Assembly (NCBI GenBank): GCA_020426345.1
Contig: JAGQQE010000008.1
Location: 1-47,281 of the forward strand
Source: Planctomycetaceae bacterium
GTDB taxonomy: Bacteria > Planctomycetota > Planctomycetia > Planctomycetales > Planctomycetaceae
DNA length: 47,281 nucleotides
Direction: 5' to 3'
Each line of letters starts with the position of its first letter. Position 1 is the stretch's first letter. This document shows positions 32,490-41,238 of the stretch, in pieces. Both the position numbers and the translations under genes were made by a program. The notes under the pieces were generated by a model. That model did not search any database. It was not told the origin of the DNA and saw only the letters and a list, made by a program, of their open reading frames with translations.

Positions 32490-33503
32490 ATGCGAATCGC
32501 GTTGGATGCGATGGGGGGCGACTTCGCCCCGGCTCCCAACATCATTGGTGCGATTGACGCTGTTGGAAAGATCCCAGGTCTTGAGATCCTTCTGGTGGGC
32601 GATCGCGCGCCCCTGGAGCAGGAGATTGCATCCGCTGGTGGCGTACCCGATTCTGTGAAAATCGTAGAATCTGAGGGCGTCGTCGGGATGGAGGAAAAGC
32701 CGACCGTCGCGCTCCGGGAAAAACCGAATTGCTCCATCGCACGATGCTGGCAATTGATGGCCTCCGGAGATGCCGATGCAGTCGTCAGTGCCGGAAACAC
32801 GGGGGCAGTTGTCGCTGCCGGGCTGAGAACCCGTTTGTTTTTGAAAGGAATCAAACGCCCCGGCATCGCCGTCACGCTGCCAACGTTGAGCGGGCCCTGT
32901 GTGCTGATGGATGTCGGTGCTAACCCGGCTGCCAGGCCGGAACATCTGTATCAGTACGGCATGATGGGCTCGATTTATGCCCGGGAAATGCTGGGGATAG
33001 CGTCGCCGCGCGTTGGTCTGATGAATATTGGAAGCGAAGACGGCAAAGGAAACGAACTTTACCGTGAAACGCACTCCTTCCTGTGCAGTTCTCCTTTGCG
33101 TCATCTTTACGTGGGGAACGTAGAAGGTCGAGGCCTTTACCATGGTGAGGCCGATGTGCTGATCTGTGAGGGTTTCGTAGGCAACGTGGTCTTGAAGGTC
33201 AGCGAAGGGATGGCTGAGTTTCTGTTGCGGACTGTTGGCGGCGCGCTTTTGAAGACGTTGACCACGGAACGCGACCTTGCCGCCAGAACGCTCAGCGAAC
33301 TGACGCAACAGTTTCGGTATCAGGAATCCGGCGGCGCGCCTTTGCTTGGCATTGATGGGGTCTGCATCATTTGTCACGGGTCCAGTGATGGCGATTCGAT
33401 CAGCAACGCTCTGAAGATGGCGACGCAGATCAACGAGAATCATATCAACGCTCAGATCATGGATCATATAGCGGCCCATCCTTTGAAATCTGATCAGGCC
33501 TGA
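32490..33503 (+). CDS. plsX: Phosphate acyltransferase PlsX
   Basis: PlsX makes acyl-phosphate from acyl-ACP for the first glycerol acylation of phospholipid synthesis; it is a peripheral membrane enzyme. The 337 residues match the family (320-350) with MRIALDAMGGDFAP at the start, DADAVVSAGNTGAVVA, DVGANPAARPEHLYQ, NIGSEDGKGNEL and CEGFVGNVVLK. It sits directly after rpmF. FabH, which often follows plsX, is not here. Confidence 0.96.
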   Translation: MRIALDAMGGDFAPAPNIIGAIDAVGKIPGLEILLVGDRAPLEQEIASAGGVPDSVKIVESEGVVGMEEKPTVALREKPNCSIARCWQLMASGDADAVVSAGNTGAVVAAGLRTRLFLKGIKRPGIAVTLPTLSGPCVLMDVGANPAARPEHLYQYGMMGSIYAREMLGIASPRVGLMNIGSEDGKGNELYRETHSFLCSSPLRHLYVGNVEGRGLYHGEADVLICEGFVGNVVLKVSEGMAEFLLRTVGGALLKTLTTERDLAARTLSELTQQFRYQESGGAPLLGIDGVCIICHGSSDGDSISNALKMATQINENHINAQIMDHIAAHPLKSDQA

Positions 33504-33604
33504 TCTCTACGGGCCTCATTTGAATCCGGCCACGGATCTGCCAACCGCCATTTAGTCGGCCAGCAACTGCCTGCGGTAACCCGTTCATTGAAAGGTGATT
33601 TGTG

Positions 33605-34534
33605 ATGTCTCGCACCGCACTTCTTTTTCCGGGCCAGGGGGCACAGCACGTGGGCATGGGACGCCGAATGGCCGAACAGTACCCGCGGGTCCGGGAAATG
33701 TACGAACAGGCCGGGCAAATTCTGGGCTTCGATCTTGCCCGGTTATGCTTCGATGGCCCTGCCGAGAAACTGGATTCGACGGATATCAGTCAGCCGGCAC
33801 TCTTTGTGACCAGCCTGGCGGCTCTGGAAAAGTTGAGGACCGACAGTCCTGGTGTGGCCGAAAGCTGCGAAATGACCGCCGGCTTGAGTCTGGGAGAATA
33901 CACCGCCCTGGTGTTTGCCGATGCGATGTCATTCGAAGATGGACTTCGAGTGGTCCAGCGACGCGGTCAGGCGATGCAGGCGGCCGCAGAGGCAACGCCT
34001 TCCGGCATGGTGAGTATTCTCCTGCTGGATCGCGAAAAGGTGGAGGAAATCTGCGAGCAGGCTTCTGAAACGGGCCGGGTTCGGATCGCGAATTATCTGT
34101 GTCCAGGTAATCTGGTTGTCAGCGGTGAAAAGGCTGGTTGCGAACGGGCTGCCGAGCTCGCAGGGGAGGCTGGAGGCCGAGCGATTCCTCTGGCCGTGGC
34201 CGGTGCTTTTCATACCGAGATTATGAGTCCCGCTGACCAGTCACTGGCCGACGCGCTTGCTGGGGTTCGCATTTCATCGCCACGCATTCCTGTGATATCG
34301 AATGTCGATGCCCGGCCGCATTCGGACCCGGAGGAAATTCGGCAACTGCTGGTGCAGCAGGTTATCAACCCTGTTCGCTGGGAAGATTCGATGAATTACC
34401 TGCTGGCGGAAGGTTGTTCAGACTTTTACGAAGTTGGCCCGGGCAAAGTGCTTAAGGGGCTGCTGAAGCGCATCAGCCGGAAGACTGCCTGTAACACGGT
34501 CAATGATTCGTTTGACGACACCGCTGGAATCTGA
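33605..34534 (+). CDS. fabD: Malonyl-CoA:ACP transacylase
   Basis: FabD transfers malonyl from CoA to ACP. The nucleophile serine is S95 in GLSLGEY and the catalytic histidine is H203 in GAFHTEIM; LLFPGQGAQHVGMG opens the protein. The ATG at 33605 is preceded by AAGGTGA. The adjacent GTG at 33602 is the alternative. At 309 residues it has the usual length. The usual NSPGQ block reads LCPGN, a small departure outside the active site. It follows plsX after 100 bp. Confidence 0.95.
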   Translation: MSRTALLFPGQGAQHVGMGRRMAEQYPRVREMYEQAGQILGFDLARLCFDGPAEKLDSTDISQPALFVTSLAALEKLRTDSPGVAESCEMTAGLSLGEYTALVFADAMSFEDGLRVVQRRGQAMQAAAEATPSGMVSILLLDREKVEEICEQASETGRVRIANYLCPGNLVVSGEKAGCERAAELAGEAGGRAIPLAVAGAFHTEIMSPADQSLADALAGVRISSPRIPVISNVDARPHSDPEEIRQLLVQQVINPVRWEDSMNYLLAEGCSDFYEVGPGKVLKGLLKRISRKTACNTVNDSFDDTAGI

Positions 34535-34780: not shown

Positions 34781-35011
34781 GTGTCTATTGAAGAAAAAGT
34801 CATCGATATCGTCAGCGATCAGCTGAACGTTCCCAAAGAAGAAATCGCCCGCCCCAGCTCATTCGTTGACGATCTGAAGGCTGATTCGCTGGACATCGTC
34901 GAACTGGTGATGGCTCTGGAAGACGAATTTGACGTCAAGATTCCGGACGAAGACTACGACAAAATTAAGACCGTCGGTGACGCAATCACCTACATCGAAG
35001 GCAAATCGTAA
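34781..35011 (+). CDS. acpP: Acyl carrier protein
   Basis: The 76-residue acidic protein carries the growing fatty acid on phosphopantetheine attached to S36 in the [11 protein letters not shown] motif. It starts with a GTG at 34781 preceded by GGAGG about 10 bases upstream. Helix boundaries and length match E. coli AcpP. It lies alone between fabD and fabF, with fabG absent from the usual place, and is closed by a strong terminator. Confidence 0.97.
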
Positions 35012-35203: not shown

Positions 35204-36451
35204 ATGTCACGACGTAGAGTTGTAGTGACAGGGCTTGGCGTTGTTACGCCGCTTGGTTGCTGCGTCGAAAGAGTCTGGAAAGCTGTCTGCGAAGGTCAGA
35301 GCGGAGTCTCGCCCATTCAGCGGTTCGATTGTCGCGACTTCAAAGTGCGGTTTGGCGGCGAAATCAAGCAGTTCAACGCGGCGGACTATCTGGACTTTGA
35401 TTCCCGCGATGTGAGACGCATCGACCGTTTCGCTCAGTTTTCACTTGTCGCCGCCCATTTTGCGATTCAACACTCAGGGATTGATTTCTCTCTGGGCGAC
35501 CCCTACCGATACGGCGTTTTGGTCGGTAGCGGGATTGGTGGTTTGGATGAGATTGAAGATCAGCATTCTCGACTCTTCGATCGCGGCCCGGAACGAATTT
35601 CCGCATTCATGATTCCGAAGCTCATTATCAACGCGGCCAGTGGTAATATCTCCGTGCGCTGGGGTCTGCGCGGTCCAAATACCGCAGTCTGTACGGCATG
35701 TGCATCGGGAACGAATGCGATTGGCGACGCGTTCCGACTGATTCAACACGGTGTTGCTGATGTAATGGTCAGCGGAGGAACTGAAGCCGGGTTGACACCG
35801 ATGGGCATTGCCGGGTTTGCCAGAATGCAGGCGCTGTCAACTCGTAATGAAGCCCCGCAGGAAGCCAGTCGCCCATTCGACCAGGATCGCGATGGGTTCG
35901 TTTTGTCGGAAGGAGCCGGCATTCTGGTTCTGGAAGAATTGGAGTTTGCCCGCAAACGCGGTGCGAACATACTGGCAGAAATCATCGGATACGGAATGTC
36001 TTCCGATGCCACGCACCTGACGGCACCAGATCCGCGTGGAATCGGCGCGGCGTACGCCATGAACGCGGCTATTTGCGATGCCGGAATCAATCCTGACGCA
36101 ATCGATTACATCAATGCGCACGGCACCAGCACGCCGCTGGGCGATGTGGCAGAATCAAATGCGATCCGATCTGTCTTCGGGAGCCACGCGGATGGCCTGG
36201 CAATTTCGAGCACAAAAGGTCAAACGGGGCATCTGCTGGGGGCTTCGGGTGGCGTCGAGTCAGCGTTTTGTGTAAAGGCAATTGGTGAACAAAAAGTTCC
36301 GCCAACGGGGAATCTTGAGACTCCCGACGAAGCGTGTGACCTGGACTATGTGCCGCACAGTGCCAGAAACATGCGAGTTGGCAAGGTGATGAAAAACAGT
36401 TTCGGTTTTGGGGGCCATAATGCCTGCATAGTCTTTTCCGCCCTCGAATAG
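35204..36451 (+). CDS. fabF: 3-oxoacyl-ACP synthase II
   Basis: The 415-residue enzyme elongates acyl-ACP with malonyl-ACP. The catalytic triad is intact: C166 (TACASGTNAI), H306 (INAHGTSTPLGD) and H343 (KGQTGHLLGASGG), with K338 also present. N-terminal VVVTGLGVVTPLG and C-terminal NSFGFGGHNACI blocks are typical. It is transcribed separately from acpP because a terminator intervenes. A degenerate homologue follows at 36715. Confidence 0.96.
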   Translation: MSRRRVVVTGLGVVTPLGCCVERVWKAVCEGQSGVSPIQRFDCRDFKVRFGGEIKQFNAADYLDFDSRDVRRIDRFAQFSLVAAHFAIQHSGIDFSLGDPYRYGVLVGSGIGGLDEIEDQHSRLFDRGPERISAFMIPKLIINAASGNISVRWGLRGPNTAVCTACASGTNAIGDAFRLIQHGVADVMVSGGTEAGLTPMGIAGFARMQALSTRNEAPQEASRPFDQDRDGFVLSEGAGILVLEELEFARKRGANILAEIIGYGMSSDATHLTAPDPRGIGAAYAMNAAICDAGINPDAIDYINAHGTSTPLGDVAESNAIRSVFGSHADGLAISSTKGQTGHLLGASGGVESAFCVKAIGEQKVPPTGNLETPDEACDLDYVPHSARNMRVGKVMKNSFGFGGHNACIVFSALE

Positions 36452-36714: not shown

Positions 36715-38019
36715 ATGTCGAATTCGTCAGCACGAGAAGTTGTTATCACCGGAATCGGAGTTGTCTCTCCGCTCGGCATTGGTCGAGATGCCTTTTGGTC
36801 GAGCATATCGGAAGGCCGTTCCGGCATCTCCAAAGTTCAGCTGCTGCCATACGTTGGAACTCCTGACCTCGTCGGTGGAGAAGTCGCCGACTTCAATGAT
36901 GAATCCACACGGAAGATTCACCTGAAGGCGCTCCGCAAGAACCTGAAGGTGATGTGCCGCGATATCCAACTGGGCGTCGCGTCGGCAATTCAGGCAGTGG
37001 CTGATGCTGGCATCGCCGAAGGATCCATCGCCCCGGAACGAATGGGCGTCGACTTCGGGGCAAATCTGATGTCCAGCCCTCCGGAAGTGCTGGTCGGTGC
37101 AGCTGTGAAATCGTTGTCTGAACGAAACGGCCGCATGTGTTTTGACTTCGATAAATGGGGCGAAGTCGGCATCACTGGAATGGAACCCCTTTGGTTACTG
37201 CGATACCTGCCTAACATGCCAGGGTGCCACATCGGAATCGCCGTTGATGCGCGTGGCCCCAATAATTCCATCACGCACGACGAAGCTTCGGGTTGTCTCG
37301 CAATTGCAGAGGCTGCCAACATCATTCGACGCAATCGTGCAGATGTGATGATCACCGGAACAACCGGGACCCGGTTGCAGGTTGCGAAAGCGGCACAGTA
37401 CGCAAACTGGGATCCGTTGGCCACAGGTCCAGCTGAATCTCGATGTCGCCCCTTCGATCGAGACAGAACCGGAGAAGTTCTTGCAGAAGCTTCCTGCACC
37501 CTGATCCTTGAAGATCGCGCTCATGCAGAAGCCAGAGGCGCAAAGATTCTCGGGACTTTGCTGGGATGTGGCGCAAGTACCGTTATCTCAAAAGACGGAA
37601 CAATTGATGAAGCAACGGCTGTGTATCAGGCTGCGTCTGCCGCACTCCGCAACGCGGGTGTCGAAGCTTCCGGACTTGGCCATATCTCTGCGTGTGCCTC
37701 CGGACATCCTCAGCGCGACAAGATGGAGGCCGCAGGTCTGCGTCGACTGCTGGGCAGTGCCGCAGACAGCATGCCGGTAACAGCACTCAAGAGTTACATG
37801 GGAAGCTCCGGCAGTGGAGCCGGGCTCTGTGAAGTTGCATCTTCTCTCCTTGCTTTGAAGAATGGTGTTGTCCCACGCACACTCAACTTTGAAAATTCCG
37901 ATCCGGATGCTGCCCTGAACATCGTTCATGGTCAGCATCTGGCCAGCTCAAACAAACTGTTTCTGAAGACGAGCGTCACACGGATGGGCCAGGCGAGTGC
38001 CGTTGTGATTCAGGCGTAG
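36715..38019 (+). CDS. Ketosynthase-fold protein lacking the catalytic triad (KS-beta-like pseudoenzyme)
   Basis: This 434-residue protein is clearly a thiolase-fold ketosynthase (EVVITGIGVVSPLGIGRDAFW; CRPFDRDRTGEVLAEASC), yet the active-site elements have changed. Where FabF has C166 in CTACASG this protein reads HDEASG, putting Glu190 at the Cys position. The first catalytic His (AHGTS) is replaced by C326 (ACASG), and the second (TGHLLG) by S363 (MGSSGS). K358 and the surrounding glycines remain. The long frame and conserved fold argue against a pseudogene. By analogy with KS-beta/chain length factors and KSQ domains, it could form a heterodimer with FabF and set chain length, or decarboxylate malonyl-ACP. 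It lies 260 bp downstream of fabF with its own strong terminator. Confidence 0.88.
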   Translation: MSNSSAREVVITGIGVVSPLGIGRDAFWSSISEGRSGISKVQLLPYVGTPDLVGGEVADFNDESTRKIHLKALRKNLKVMCRDIQLGVASAIQAVADAGIAEGSIAPERMGVDFGANLMSSPPEVLVGAAVKSLSERNGRMCFDFDKWGEVGITGMEPLWLLRYLPNMPGCHIGIAVDARGPNNSITHDEASGCLAIAEAANIIRRNRADVMITGTTGTRLQVAKAAQYANWDPLATGPAESRCRPFDRDRTGEVLAEASCTLILEDRAHAEARGAKILGTLLGCGASTVISKDGTIDEATAVYQAASAALRNAGVEASGLGHISACASGHPQRDKMEAAGLRRLLGSAADSMPVTALKSYMGSSGSGAGLCEVASSLLALKNGVVPRTLNFENSDPDAALNIVHGQHLASSNKLFLKTSVTRMGQASAVVIQA

Positions 38020-38080: not shown

Positions 38081-38175
38081 TGCCATCCCTCCGAGTTCAG
38101 GCGGGTCGTCCGCTAACCGCTCGACTGTCTTCCGGAGGTTCATATTTGTGACTGGGCGTGTGCAAAGGGATTGCA

Positions 38176-39039
38176 GTGTCGGTGTTTCCGGATACGAAAC
38201 CACGTTTGAGTCTGCTGCAGATTTCCGATCTCCATTTTGGCCCCCCGTTTCGAGTCGAAGTCGCCGAAGCAGTGCTGCGACTGGCCCCCACGATCGCTGC
38301 AGACGCTGTTATAATCAGCGGAGATCTGACCCAGCGAGCCAGGCGAGAGCAGTTTGAACAGGCGAAAGTATTTTTGAGTCGGCTTCCCGCTGTTCCCCGG
38401 ATGGTTATACCGGGCAACCACGATGTGCCGCTGTATCGATTCGTGGAACGTATGGTCGATCCTTATCGAAACTATCGAGCGATCATTTCAACGGATTTGA
38501 ATCCAGTACTCGTTTTGCCGTCTGCGATTCTTGCGGGACTGAATTCTTCAGCACCCCATACTGCGATCAGTAATGGCTGGGTATCCAGTCAACAACTGGA
38601 TGCCTGCGAAGCGGTCTTTCAGAATTCCCCCGAATCGTTGCTGCGCGTGGTCGTTTGCCATCACCCGTTCATTCCGGCTCCTGACCGTCTGCGCGACAAG
38701 GTGATGTGGGGGGCTGGACAGGCATTACGACGTCTCCAGTCGATGGGGGTGCGATTGATTCTTGGTGGCCATCTGCATCGCGCATACACAGGTCGGTCTC
38801 AGGACTTTTATTTCCACGAAGAAACTGGTGGCAGTGGAATCCTGATTGTTCATTCCGGAACGACGACTTCGAGCCGTGGACGTGGTCGCGAACGCCAGGC
38901 GAACTCGTTGAATCACATCGAGATATTCGAGGGGCATTTTTGCGTAACCACCTATCTGCACAGTGGCACCACGGGTGAATTCGAACCGGTCAGCCAGCAA
39001 AAATTTGCGACTGCAGACCCCGGAATGGAAGCGTCATAG
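38176..39039 (+). CDS. Calcineurin-like metallophosphoesterase
   Basis: The protein has the full binuclear-metal phosphoesterase set: ISDLHFG (D, H), SGDLTQ (D), GNHD (N, H), CHHPF (H) and GGHLHRAY (H, H), so it is a cytosolic enzyme of the CpdA/ICC subfamily. These cleave cyclic nucleotides or phosphodiesters; the substrate is not fixed by sequence. I take the GTG at 38176, preceded by AAAGGGA, giving 287 residues. A GTG at 38158 would add six. It is transcribed away from the fatty acid cluster after a terminator, and converges with the next gene. Confidence 0.88.
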   Translation: MSVFPDTKPRLSLLQISDLHFGPPFRVEVAEAVLRLAPTIAADAVIISGDLTQRARREQFEQAKVFLSRLPAVPRMVIPGNHDVPLYRFVERMVDPYRNYRAIISTDLNPVLVLPSAILAGLNSSAPHTAISNGWVSSQQLDACEAVFQNSPESLLRVVVCHHPFIPAPDRLRDKVMWGAGQALRRLQSMGVRLILGGHLHRAYTGRSQDFYFHEETGGSGILIVHSGTTTSSRGRGRERQANSLNHIEIFEGHFCVTTYLHSGTTGEFEPVSQQKFATADPGMEAS

Positions 39040-39064: not shown

Positions 39065-40366
39065 TCATCCCGTTTCTTCAGATTCGTTCGAATCAGGCCG
39101 GACAACCACACCGAGTGAATCTGCATCAATAACCAGAATTCGCGTCTTATTCCCCAGCCAGAATCCACCTTCCGATCTCGCCGGAATCCTGGTTTCCTCA
39201 ACCATCACGAATCCTTCTGGCGAAAGATCTCCATAGGTCAGTCCGTGTTTGCCCCGGAACCTTTCATAAGCGCATTCTCTTGTCGAAGTGGCTTTGTTCT
39301 CTCCGGCAGCGCCTGGCTTAGGCGATTCATAACAGCATGGATCGCATCCGCTGCCAGCCCAGCAACAGAAGCCGTCCGAGCAGCAATCACATCCAACACA
39401 TGCTGCGCCCTCCGCAGCGCCTTCGGCCCCGGCACAGGCGCATTCGCCGCATTCTCCCACTGCACAAAAAGCTTCGCAGCAATCGCATCGCGCATACTGA
39501 TAACGTTTGGCTCGGACCAAACCCCATCGTTCGAGCCGTGTGGTCCGACAGATGTGATCGGGATGATGCAGGCGATGGTTGACTCGTCGTGTCAAATCCT
39601 CAAGGACCTGGCGACACACAGAATCTTGCGATGGTAAGGCCCATCCGGCACGGGCGAGTTCCAGTAAACAAGTGCGCAGGGAGTTCTCAACCTCCAGCGC
39701 ATTTCTCAACGGATTGAATTCACCATAAATCTGATCGTGATGAAAGTCAGCTGCGCAATCCCATGCAATCAGCGCACGTCCTGTACTTCGACCGATCTTT
39801 TCGAAATCGTCTGCAATGTCATCGGTTGCGTTCAGTGCCATCGCAATGGATCTGAACAACAATGCGAATCCATCTCCTGTTGGCCGTATATAATCAGACA
39901 ACTCTACTCGTCTGCCGGATTCAAGCTGATGATGTTCCATCAGGATGTTCTGAATCTGACGCTTGATCCCCGGGTTGGCAACTTCGAGGATTTCCGAAGC
40001 CATCCTGATTTGTCTTTGGTATTTGAACAGCAGCAAACGGTTGTGCCATCGTCCGTGATCTGCGACATCGTCGTTCAGTTTGATTCCGGCCAGCAGCATG
40101 CCGAATGCTGCTGACAGCGAAGCCGCTGCGTAATCGGGCCGCTGTTCCGGATTCTTCAGCCGCTTCAGGCGACAGCATTCCGGAGACGCCGAGGGCAGTT
40201 CCGGAATCAGTTGTTTTTCAATGGCCAGTCTGTAAACAAATGTTGCTTCGTAGCTAAGAAATGGCAAAGACATCATGCCAAACAGGCGGCGCTGTGTCTG
40301 GCAAATGCGGGCGTAGCTTTGCCGCCAAAGCGGCAACTTTGCTGCTGGTTTAAGAAAGCCAAACAT
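39065..40366 (-). CDS. DUF5685-type protein fused to a Cys-rich segment and NfeD-like OB fold
   Basis: The 433-residue protein reads in one frame. Residues 1 to about 290 fit DUF5685 (MFGFLKPAA..., YAAASLSAAFGMLLAGIKLNDD, AWDCAADFHHDQIYGEFNPL). It then has 16 cysteines between 294 and 345, mostly as CxC, CC and CxxC pairs. A C-terminal ~55 residues (GKHGLTYGDLSPEGFVMVEE...GNKTRILVIDADSLGVVVRP) match the NfeD C-terminal OB fold by pattern. DUF5685 proteins have unknown function. The cysteine cluster could bind several metal ions or an Fe-S cluster. No signal peptide is seen, so it is probably cytosolic. The fusion of these three parts is unusual. The ATG at 40366 follows GGTGGCAGACG. Confidence 0.82.
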   Translation of the reverse strand: MFGFLKPAAKLPLWRQSYARICQTQRRLFGMMSLPFLSYEATFVYRLAIEKQLIPELPSASPECCRLKRLKNPEQRPDYAAASLSAAFGMLLAGIKLNDDVADHGRWHNRLLLFKYQRQIRMASEILEVANPGIKRQIQNILMEHHQLESGRRVELSDYIRPTGDGFALLFRSIAMALNATDDIADDFEKIGRSTGRALIAWDCAADFHHDQIYGEFNPLRNALEVENSLRTCLLELARAGWALPSQDSVCRQVLEDLTRRVNHRLHHPDHICRTTRLERWGLVRAKRYQYARCDCCEAFCAVGECGECACAGAEGAAEGAACVGCDCCSDGFCCWAGSGCDPCCYESPKPGAAGENKATSTRECAYERFRGKHGLTYGDLSPEGFVMVEETRIPARSEGGFWLGNKTRILVIDADSLGVVVRPDSNESEETG

Positions 40367-40599
40367 CGTCTGCCACCTGAATGGTTCTCCTGGAAAATTC
40401 GGATGATCACATCGGAGTCGTCAATGCCCGGAAGCGTAGTGAAAGGCAATCGTCAAGAACAGCCATGATCCGTTCGGGGACGAATTCAAAAAACAGCTTC
40501 TGCTTCACGCTGGCTTAAGGTTGTTGTGTTAGAGTGGCTGGAGTCGCCTGAGCATTGGTTGTTCAGCCGAGTTCAAAGAAGATTGTGGAGAGATCGAAT

Positions 40600-41238
40600 A
40601 TGAAAAGAATCCTATACACGTCGGCCTTTGCTGGTTTACTCAGTGTCGCAACAGTTGTTCTGGCACAACCACCAGAAGGTGGACGGCCGGATGGACCACC
40701 TCCCGGCGAGCGTGGACCGCGGGAGCGAAATCCACCGCCACCCAATCCATTTATGGAAGCGCTGGATACGAATGGCGATCACGTAATTTCAGCCGAGGAA
40801 CTTGAGAACGCGAAGGCGTCCCTGTTGACTCTTGATACGAATGGCGACGGAAAGCTGAGTGACGAAGAGACTCGGCCACCTGCCCCCGAAGGAAGAGGTC
40901 CTCGAGACGGTGGTCCTCGAGACGGTGGTCCTCGAGACGGTGGTCCTCGAGATGGTGGTCCTCGAGACGGTGGTCCTCGAGACGGTGGTCCTCGAGATGG
41001 TGGTCCTCCAAGCCCCGAGCGACTCGTCGCGGAGGCAATGCGTTTTGACGCGGATGGTGATGGGAAACTGGGCCGGGACGAGTTGCTGGAATTCGCCCGG
41101 GACTTCATCACCCGCCGACCCCCTCAGGGAGCAGGTCGACCTCCAGGACCGGATGATGCGCCGGGTGGTCGGGATGGTCGAGGCCGCCCTCCTCGCGATG
41201 GCCGTCCTTCAGGGGAAAATCGACCTCCTTCCGAATAG
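40600..41238 (+). CDS. Secreted EF-hand protein with GPRDG tandem repeats
   Basis: I start at the ATG at 40600, preceded by GGAGAG, giving 212 residues with a signal peptide (MKRILYTSAFAGLLSVATVVLAQ). It has three canonical EF-hand loops: DTNGDHVISAEE (about 56-67), DTNGDGKLSDEE (79-90) and DADGDGKLGRDE (about 150-161). Between the second and third lie seven perfect GPRDG repeats. The rest is Pro/Gly/Arg-rich and disordered. It should be an extracytoplasmic calcium-binding protein. Related EF-hand, Pro-rich proteins are frequent in Planctomycetes. Divergent from the DUF5685 gene. Confidence 0.85.
   Translation: MKRILYTSAFAGLLSVATVVLAQPPEGGRPDGPPPGERGPRERNPPPPNPFMEALDTNGDHVISAEELENAKASLLTLDTNGDGKLSDEETRPPAPEGRGPRDGGPRDGGPRDGGPRDGGPRDGGPRDGGPRDGGPPSPERLVAEAMRFDADGDGKLGRDELLEFARDFITRRPPQGAGRPPGPDDAPGGRDGRGRPPRDGRPSGENRPPSE
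40897..41001 (+). repeat. Seven 15-bp tandem repeats (GPRDG units)
   Basis: The unit GGTCCTCGAGAYGGT occurs seven times without gaps; copies 4 and 7 differ only by T for C. Near-identity at the DNA level, with silent changes only, points to recent expansion or ongoing slippage within the EF-hand gene. The period is a multiple of three and keeps the frame. Confidence 0.95.

Follow-up and report, generated by a model that had tools for sequence, protein, structure and literature searches.

Gene content around KSA

The window, which is the whole analysed stretch of 47,281 nucleotides from a Planctomycetaceae bacterium, contains plsX, fabD, acpP and fabF in the same orientation (Table 1). On the FabF equivalog model, which has a cut-off of 494, the fabF product reaches 612 bits. 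A second ketosynthase gene, here called KSA, begins 263 bases after fabF on the same strand. No conserved element was seen in the stretch between the two genes (mean identity 44%), a promoter and terminator scan gave no more matches than expected, and the window has no match in Rfam.

A calcineurin-like phosphoesterase is encoded directly downstream of KSA (38158-39039). It partially matches an anti-phage phosphoesterase model, but with 64.5 bits, where the cut-off is 420, it does not belong to that family by score. Farther along are a DUF5685 protein on the minus strand (39065-40366), whose C-terminal half contains a stretch rich in Cys and Ala, and an EF-hand protein that carries GGPRD repeats in a row (40555-41238).

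Table 1. Genes and KSA sites located in the window
Feature	Position	Strand	Basis or remark
plsX	32490..33503	+	Pfam search
fabD	33602..34534	+	Pfam and equivalog model searches
acpP	34781..35011	+	Pfam and equivalog model searches
fabF (canonical beta-ketoacyl-ACP synthase II; triad intact, ACP patch basic)	35204..36451	+	Alignment, equivalog model
KSA, KSbeta-type ketosynthase pseudoenzyme, 434 aa	36715..38019	+	ORF, Pfam, PDB relatives, alignment, AlphaFold2
R74-K75-N-L-K78, corresponding to the ACP-docking patch R64/K65/R68 of FabF	36934..36948	+	Alignment; patch role from PMC7138838
PLWLLRYLPNM segment, aligned with FabF 131-141	37186..37218	+	Near-identical to the KSbeta adjoining KSalpha
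Glu190 codon at the catalytic Cys163 position	37282..37284	+	Alignment to E. coli FabF
Cys327 codon at the His303 position	37693..37695	+	Alignment to E. coli FabF; clade usually His
Ser364 codon at the His340 position	37804..37806	+	Alignment to E. coli FabF; clade usually Asn
TRMGQ replacing GFGG of gating loop 1, Phe400 to Arg	37978..37992	+	Alignment

Active site and fold of KSA

KSA matches both Pfam ketoacyl-synthase domains (1.2e-29 and 1.3e-18), and its best PDB relatives are FabF proteins. Its AlphaFold2 monomer model, built with 31 sequences, has a mean pLDDT of 89.4 and a TM score of 0.82 to FabF structures, which bears out a prior sequence-only reading that the fold and length of a ketosynthase are kept. 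On the FabF equivalog TIGR03150 it scores 224.1 bits, below the cut-off of 493.75. That reading had also recognized the replacement of all three catalytic residues, as E190, C326 and S363. The replacements hold, but the last two numbers are one too low and correspond to C327 and S364. Lys335 and Glu349 of E. coli FabF are both kept, as K359 and E373, and the pantetheine-binding Thr305 and Thr307 positions carry Ser and His. The sole cysteine near the elbow, C194, lies four residues past E190. The three congeners lack it, and it therefore does not qualify as a conserved substitute for the nucleophile. Another Cys in the nucleophile elbow would have spoken against the sequence-only reading, and the KSA alignment contains no conserved one.

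KSA is a maintained protein under purifying selection like fabF, not a pseudogene. Of 40 relatives, 39 encode a strong homologue. Comparisons inside the genus give pN/pS values of 0.18-0.24 for KSA and 0.16-0.21 for fabF (raw ratios, quoted because synonymous sites are near saturation). The catalytic residues drift further in KSA's genus than in the rest of its clade, which is what a functionless, decaying duplicate would do. Such decay is nevertheless scarcely credible for a gene with a full-length, well-folded model, a conserved ACP patch, near-universal retention and selection of this kind.

The KSbeta clade

KSA falls inside a supported planctomycete clade of Cys-less ketosynthases of the RB4527 type (KSbeta; SH-aLRT 99-100) and has the acidic residue at the Cys site. 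Among 60 class-level sequences, 37 have Glu and 20 have Asp at this site, making it acidic in 57, and none has Cys; some clade members carry Gly, Ser, Ala or Asn there. The His303 position remains His in 42 of the sequences, and the His340 position is Asn in 36. The four members of KSA's genus instead have Cys, Cys, Ser and Asn at the former and Ser throughout at the latter. The genome of KSA encodes a second KSbeta, the paralogue KSB (C167; Asp/Gln/His; 42% identity), and most genomes of the window's family (f1) likewise carry two non-identical copies.

Ketosynthases with an intact triad make up the sister group of the KSbeta clade. The upstream member of an f19 tandem pair is among them, f19 being a family outside the class; the clade together with f19 has a support of 95. 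Orthologues retaining the triad had been named as evidence against the sequence-only reading. None with the Cys exists within the KSbeta clade, but the f19 upstream gene in the sister group does have the full triad. One clade member (L067, G028) has a Ser-His-Lys-His signature that keeps both His residues and has Ser as nucleophile, possibly a regained or alternative active site. A contig in a MAG titled Candidatus Kuenenia stuttgartiensis (L112) encodes a KSbeta that is 41% identical to KSA; since KSB copies from Planctomycetaceae MAGs are similar in this respect, either the contig or its label may be misassigned.

That FabF paralogues of planctomycetes can lack the Cys was already known: Rattray et al. 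(2009, PMC2649909) reported two such Rhodopirellula baltica proteins, RB4527 (NP_866153) and RB3714 (NP_865682), one with Asp and the other with Glu at Cys163. They were a side result of work on ladderanes, and no partner, cluster or role was given for them. Like KSA, both are planctomycete FabF paralogues in which Glu or Asp replaces the active-site Cys. RB4527, compared through the published table, has Glu/His/Lys/Asn, the commonest signature of the KSbeta clade. KSA differs from it in having lost His303 as well and in adjoining fabF.

Tandem pairing with KSalpha

At all 12 loci of the sister families f2, f3, f4 and f6, the gene immediately after KSbeta on the same strand is a second ketosynthase gene, KSalpha, with gaps of 32-80 bp at the six loci measured. 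KSalpha is an intact ketosynthase with the motif TACAASSQ. The surrounding cluster encodes a FabA-like dehydratase, FabG, an ACP, a second FabA-like dehydratase, KSbeta, KSalpha and an alpha/beta hydrolase. A GH3-type gene is often present, and at some loci part of the cluster genes went undetected. KSbeta/KSalpha pairs were also found in additional families of the phylum.

The window's family, f5 and f7 have the same cluster without KSbeta, and their KSbeta copies are located elsewhere. One type lies beside fatty-acid synthesis genes or nusA-infB (named from their sequences, without a family search), and the other type stands alone. In KSA's own genome the cluster (contig C6, L140:1297-6402) runs FabA-like, FabG, ACP, FabA-like, KSalpha, alpha/beta hydrolase, and the tandem neighbour of KSA is fabF rather than the KSalpha found in all 12 sister-family loci. 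Genes of the KSalpha type are present in every one of the 40 relatives searched, so the cluster product may be a core lipid of the class. This arrangement suggests that the KSalpha of the conserved second fatty-acid/polyketide-type cluster was the ancestral partner of KSbeta. Four genomes of the window's family (L091-L094; G023, G015, G002, G018) carry a second KSbeta/KSalpha tandem pair of a distinct kind, and behind it stands one more conserved gene.

Contrasting retention of active site and docking patch

In structures of FabF with AcpP, Lys65, Arg68 and Lys69 contact the carrier protein, and most contacts come from the monomer that is not cross-linked to that ACP (PMC7138838). The net charge at FabF positions 64/65/68/69 averages +2.7 to +3.0 across KSbeta groups (cluster KSbeta +2.67, KSA +2.88, KSB +2.86) and +2.74 in planctomycete FabF. 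KSalpha is instead negative over 37 sequences, at -0.75 where the cluster contains KSbeta and -0.72 where it does not. The difference between KSbeta and KSalpha has a Mann-Whitney p of 1e-17, a value uncorrected for relatedness that overstates the number of independent observations because the sequences are related. It recurs in every examined family that has a pair, and it persists in a register-free count over the ten residues before position 72, although FabF reaches only +0.35 by that count.

Conservation of individual columns follows the same division. The K65 column of KSA exceeds 89% of columns in conservation, whereas its His303, Thr305 and Thr307 positions drift. In KSalpha none of the catalytic columns varies, and those of the patch rank among the most variable. 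KSbeta has thus kept the patch and lost the active site and KSalpha shows the mirror-image losses, which, judged from these alignments, suggests a heterodimer with one live site. If ACP contacts come mainly from the opposite monomer, then a patchless KSalpha would need a partner that has the patch.

The tandem pairs of f19 were found in four genomes (G095, G076, G051 and G153; L157, L158, L159 and L161), with Cys-His-His in both genes. Only the upstream gene keeps a basic patch (+2.75), the downstream one being at -1.75. These pairs possibly represent an intermediate state, which suggests that docking asymmetry came first and loss of the active site afterwards.

In the KSalpha proteins of the relatives, Glu never varies at FabF positions 108, 134 and 136, and it is almost invariant at 138. 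Salt bridges between these acids and the basic KSbeta residues at 193 and 198 were considered and rejected; the arrangement is suggestive, but the f19 pairs keep a basic 193 without the acids.

Probable partner and role of KSA

KSA is probably a non-condensing docking subunit, similar to a chain-length factor (CLF), that dimerizes with an active ketosynthase. In this mechanism KSbeta would pair with the active subunit, ACP would land on the KSbeta surface, as placed from the E. coli FabF structure, and it would reach from there the single live active site of KSalpha. KSbeta may also form one wall of the acyl tunnel. Its own site would face no landing patch on the partner, and it has decayed. 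A precedent for docking on KSbeta comes from the aryl-polyene KS-CLF, for which conserved Arg30 and Arg31 on the CLF (ApeC) are proposed to bind ACP (PMC8358021). The heterodimeric synthase proposed by the sequence-only reading is supported in kind by the tandem pairing with an active ketosynthase elsewhere and by the complementary losses, and FabF, its specific partner there, is possible.

For KSA itself, the sequence comparisons make KSalpha a somewhat likelier partner than the neighbouring FabF: KSalpha stands near an even chance, FabF distinctly below it, and the rest falls to neither. Pairing with FabF would mean that KSA left the secondary cluster for primary fatty-acid synthesis, where it biases chain length or ACP recognition, while KSB serves KSalpha. 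We regard this as rather unlikely, although KSbeta is co-directional with fabF within about 0.4 kb at nine loci and adjoins it in a tenth genome (L213), and the two copies in most f1 genomes would permit such a division. Distance correlations also offer a weak signal for both pairs (partial r 0.35 for KSA-FabF and 0.36 for KSB-KSalpha, p about 0.025), but they are not robust and are lost once the genus is removed. In many relatives KSA lies near nusA-infB with the fatty-acid synthesis genes elsewhere, so adjacency to fabF looks like an old, loosely kept gene order. FabF moreover keeps its own patch and so appears self-sufficient by sequence. The segment of KSA aligned with FabF 131-141, which we take from general knowledge of KAS II structures to lie beside the dimer interface and acyl pocket, matches the cluster KSbeta that neighbours KSalpha; in LWLLRYLPNM and the basic residue at 193, KSA is closer to that KSbeta than KSB is. 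The ancestry of KSA and the missing patch of KSalpha favour KSalpha too. The monomer model has low pLDDT at 158-166, within this region, and a single-sequence model of FabF (pLDDT 32) was unusable. It is a doubtful proposition that the elongating ketosynthase of primary fatty-acid synthesis in these planctomycetes is, at least partly, a FabF:KSbeta heterodimer whose docking subunit was recruited into the core cluster from a secondary polyketide-like system.

Other roles for the protein assign chemistry to its altered site. The conserved carboxylate there (57 of 60 sequences across families) has lasted longer than neutral drift suggests, and a purely structural role leaves it unexplained. A new reaction catalysed by the elbow Glu or Asp is nonetheless improbable. 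The two acids exchange freely among close relatives, which argues against precise catalysis; His303, Thr305 and Thr307 drift, the GFGG loop is lost, and some members have Gly, Ser, Ala or Asn instead. The sequence-only reading had also offered a malonyl-ACP decarboxylase, which in KSQ fashion would make an acetyl-ACP primer. A polar residue in place of Cys is what KSQ proteins show, and in most clade members His303 is accompanied by Asn at 340, which recalls the His-Asn combination of KAS III. We consider this role very improbable and do not retain it for KSA, which has Cys and Ser at the two decarboxylation His positions; its congeners have Cys, Ser or Asn at the first and Ser at the second, so the clade's His/Asn pair is gone in the genus. 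An ACP serving the KSbeta site would also have to dock on the patchless KSalpha. Loss of fabH as a motive is ruled out, since each of the 40 relatives has a FabH (in 38 of them above the curated cut-off) and no alternative primer source is needed.

Comparison with known ketosynthase systems

The docking-subunit reading sets KSbeta beside the CLFs of type II polyketide synthases, such as the actinorhodin CLF and ApeC. Both have the ketosynthase fold without the catalytic Cys, the sister-family KSbeta genes lie next to an active ketosynthase with ACP, ketoreductase and dehydratase genes, and contact with ACP is proposed for CLF as it is here for KSbeta. KSbeta differs in having Glu or Asp instead of Gln, the residue at the Cys site of the two Streptomyces CLFs aligned, and KSA lies apart from its putative ancestral partner. 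A common clade of KSbeta with actinobacterial CLFs was rejected (AU p = 0.0066) in a tree with two CLFs on long branches that did not include ApeC or Iga12. KSA resembles FabF (KAS II) in fold, length, the Lys335 and Glu349 positions and the ACP patch, but it has lost the triad, the GFGG loop and the pantetheine-binding Thr positions. It shares replacement of the Cys by a polar residue with the KSQ loading decarboxylases, but that residue is Glu rather than Gln and both catalytic His residues are lost.

The tandem pairing of KSbeta with KSalpha in sister families, the orphan KSbeta copies of f1, and a patch kept in KSbeta but lost from KSalpha appear to be new here. The open-licence literature searched contained no mention of the class-wide clade, of its separation from the KSalpha cluster in f1, or of active site and patch going opposite ways. 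These observations could turn the FabF-paralogue curiosity of 2009 into a testable split ketosynthase, with the active site on one subunit and the carrier-protein landing patch on the other. If this is true, chain-length-factor-like subunits would have arisen a second time, independently. Two distinct KS chains are also present in PDB entry 9s5h, as chains B and C.
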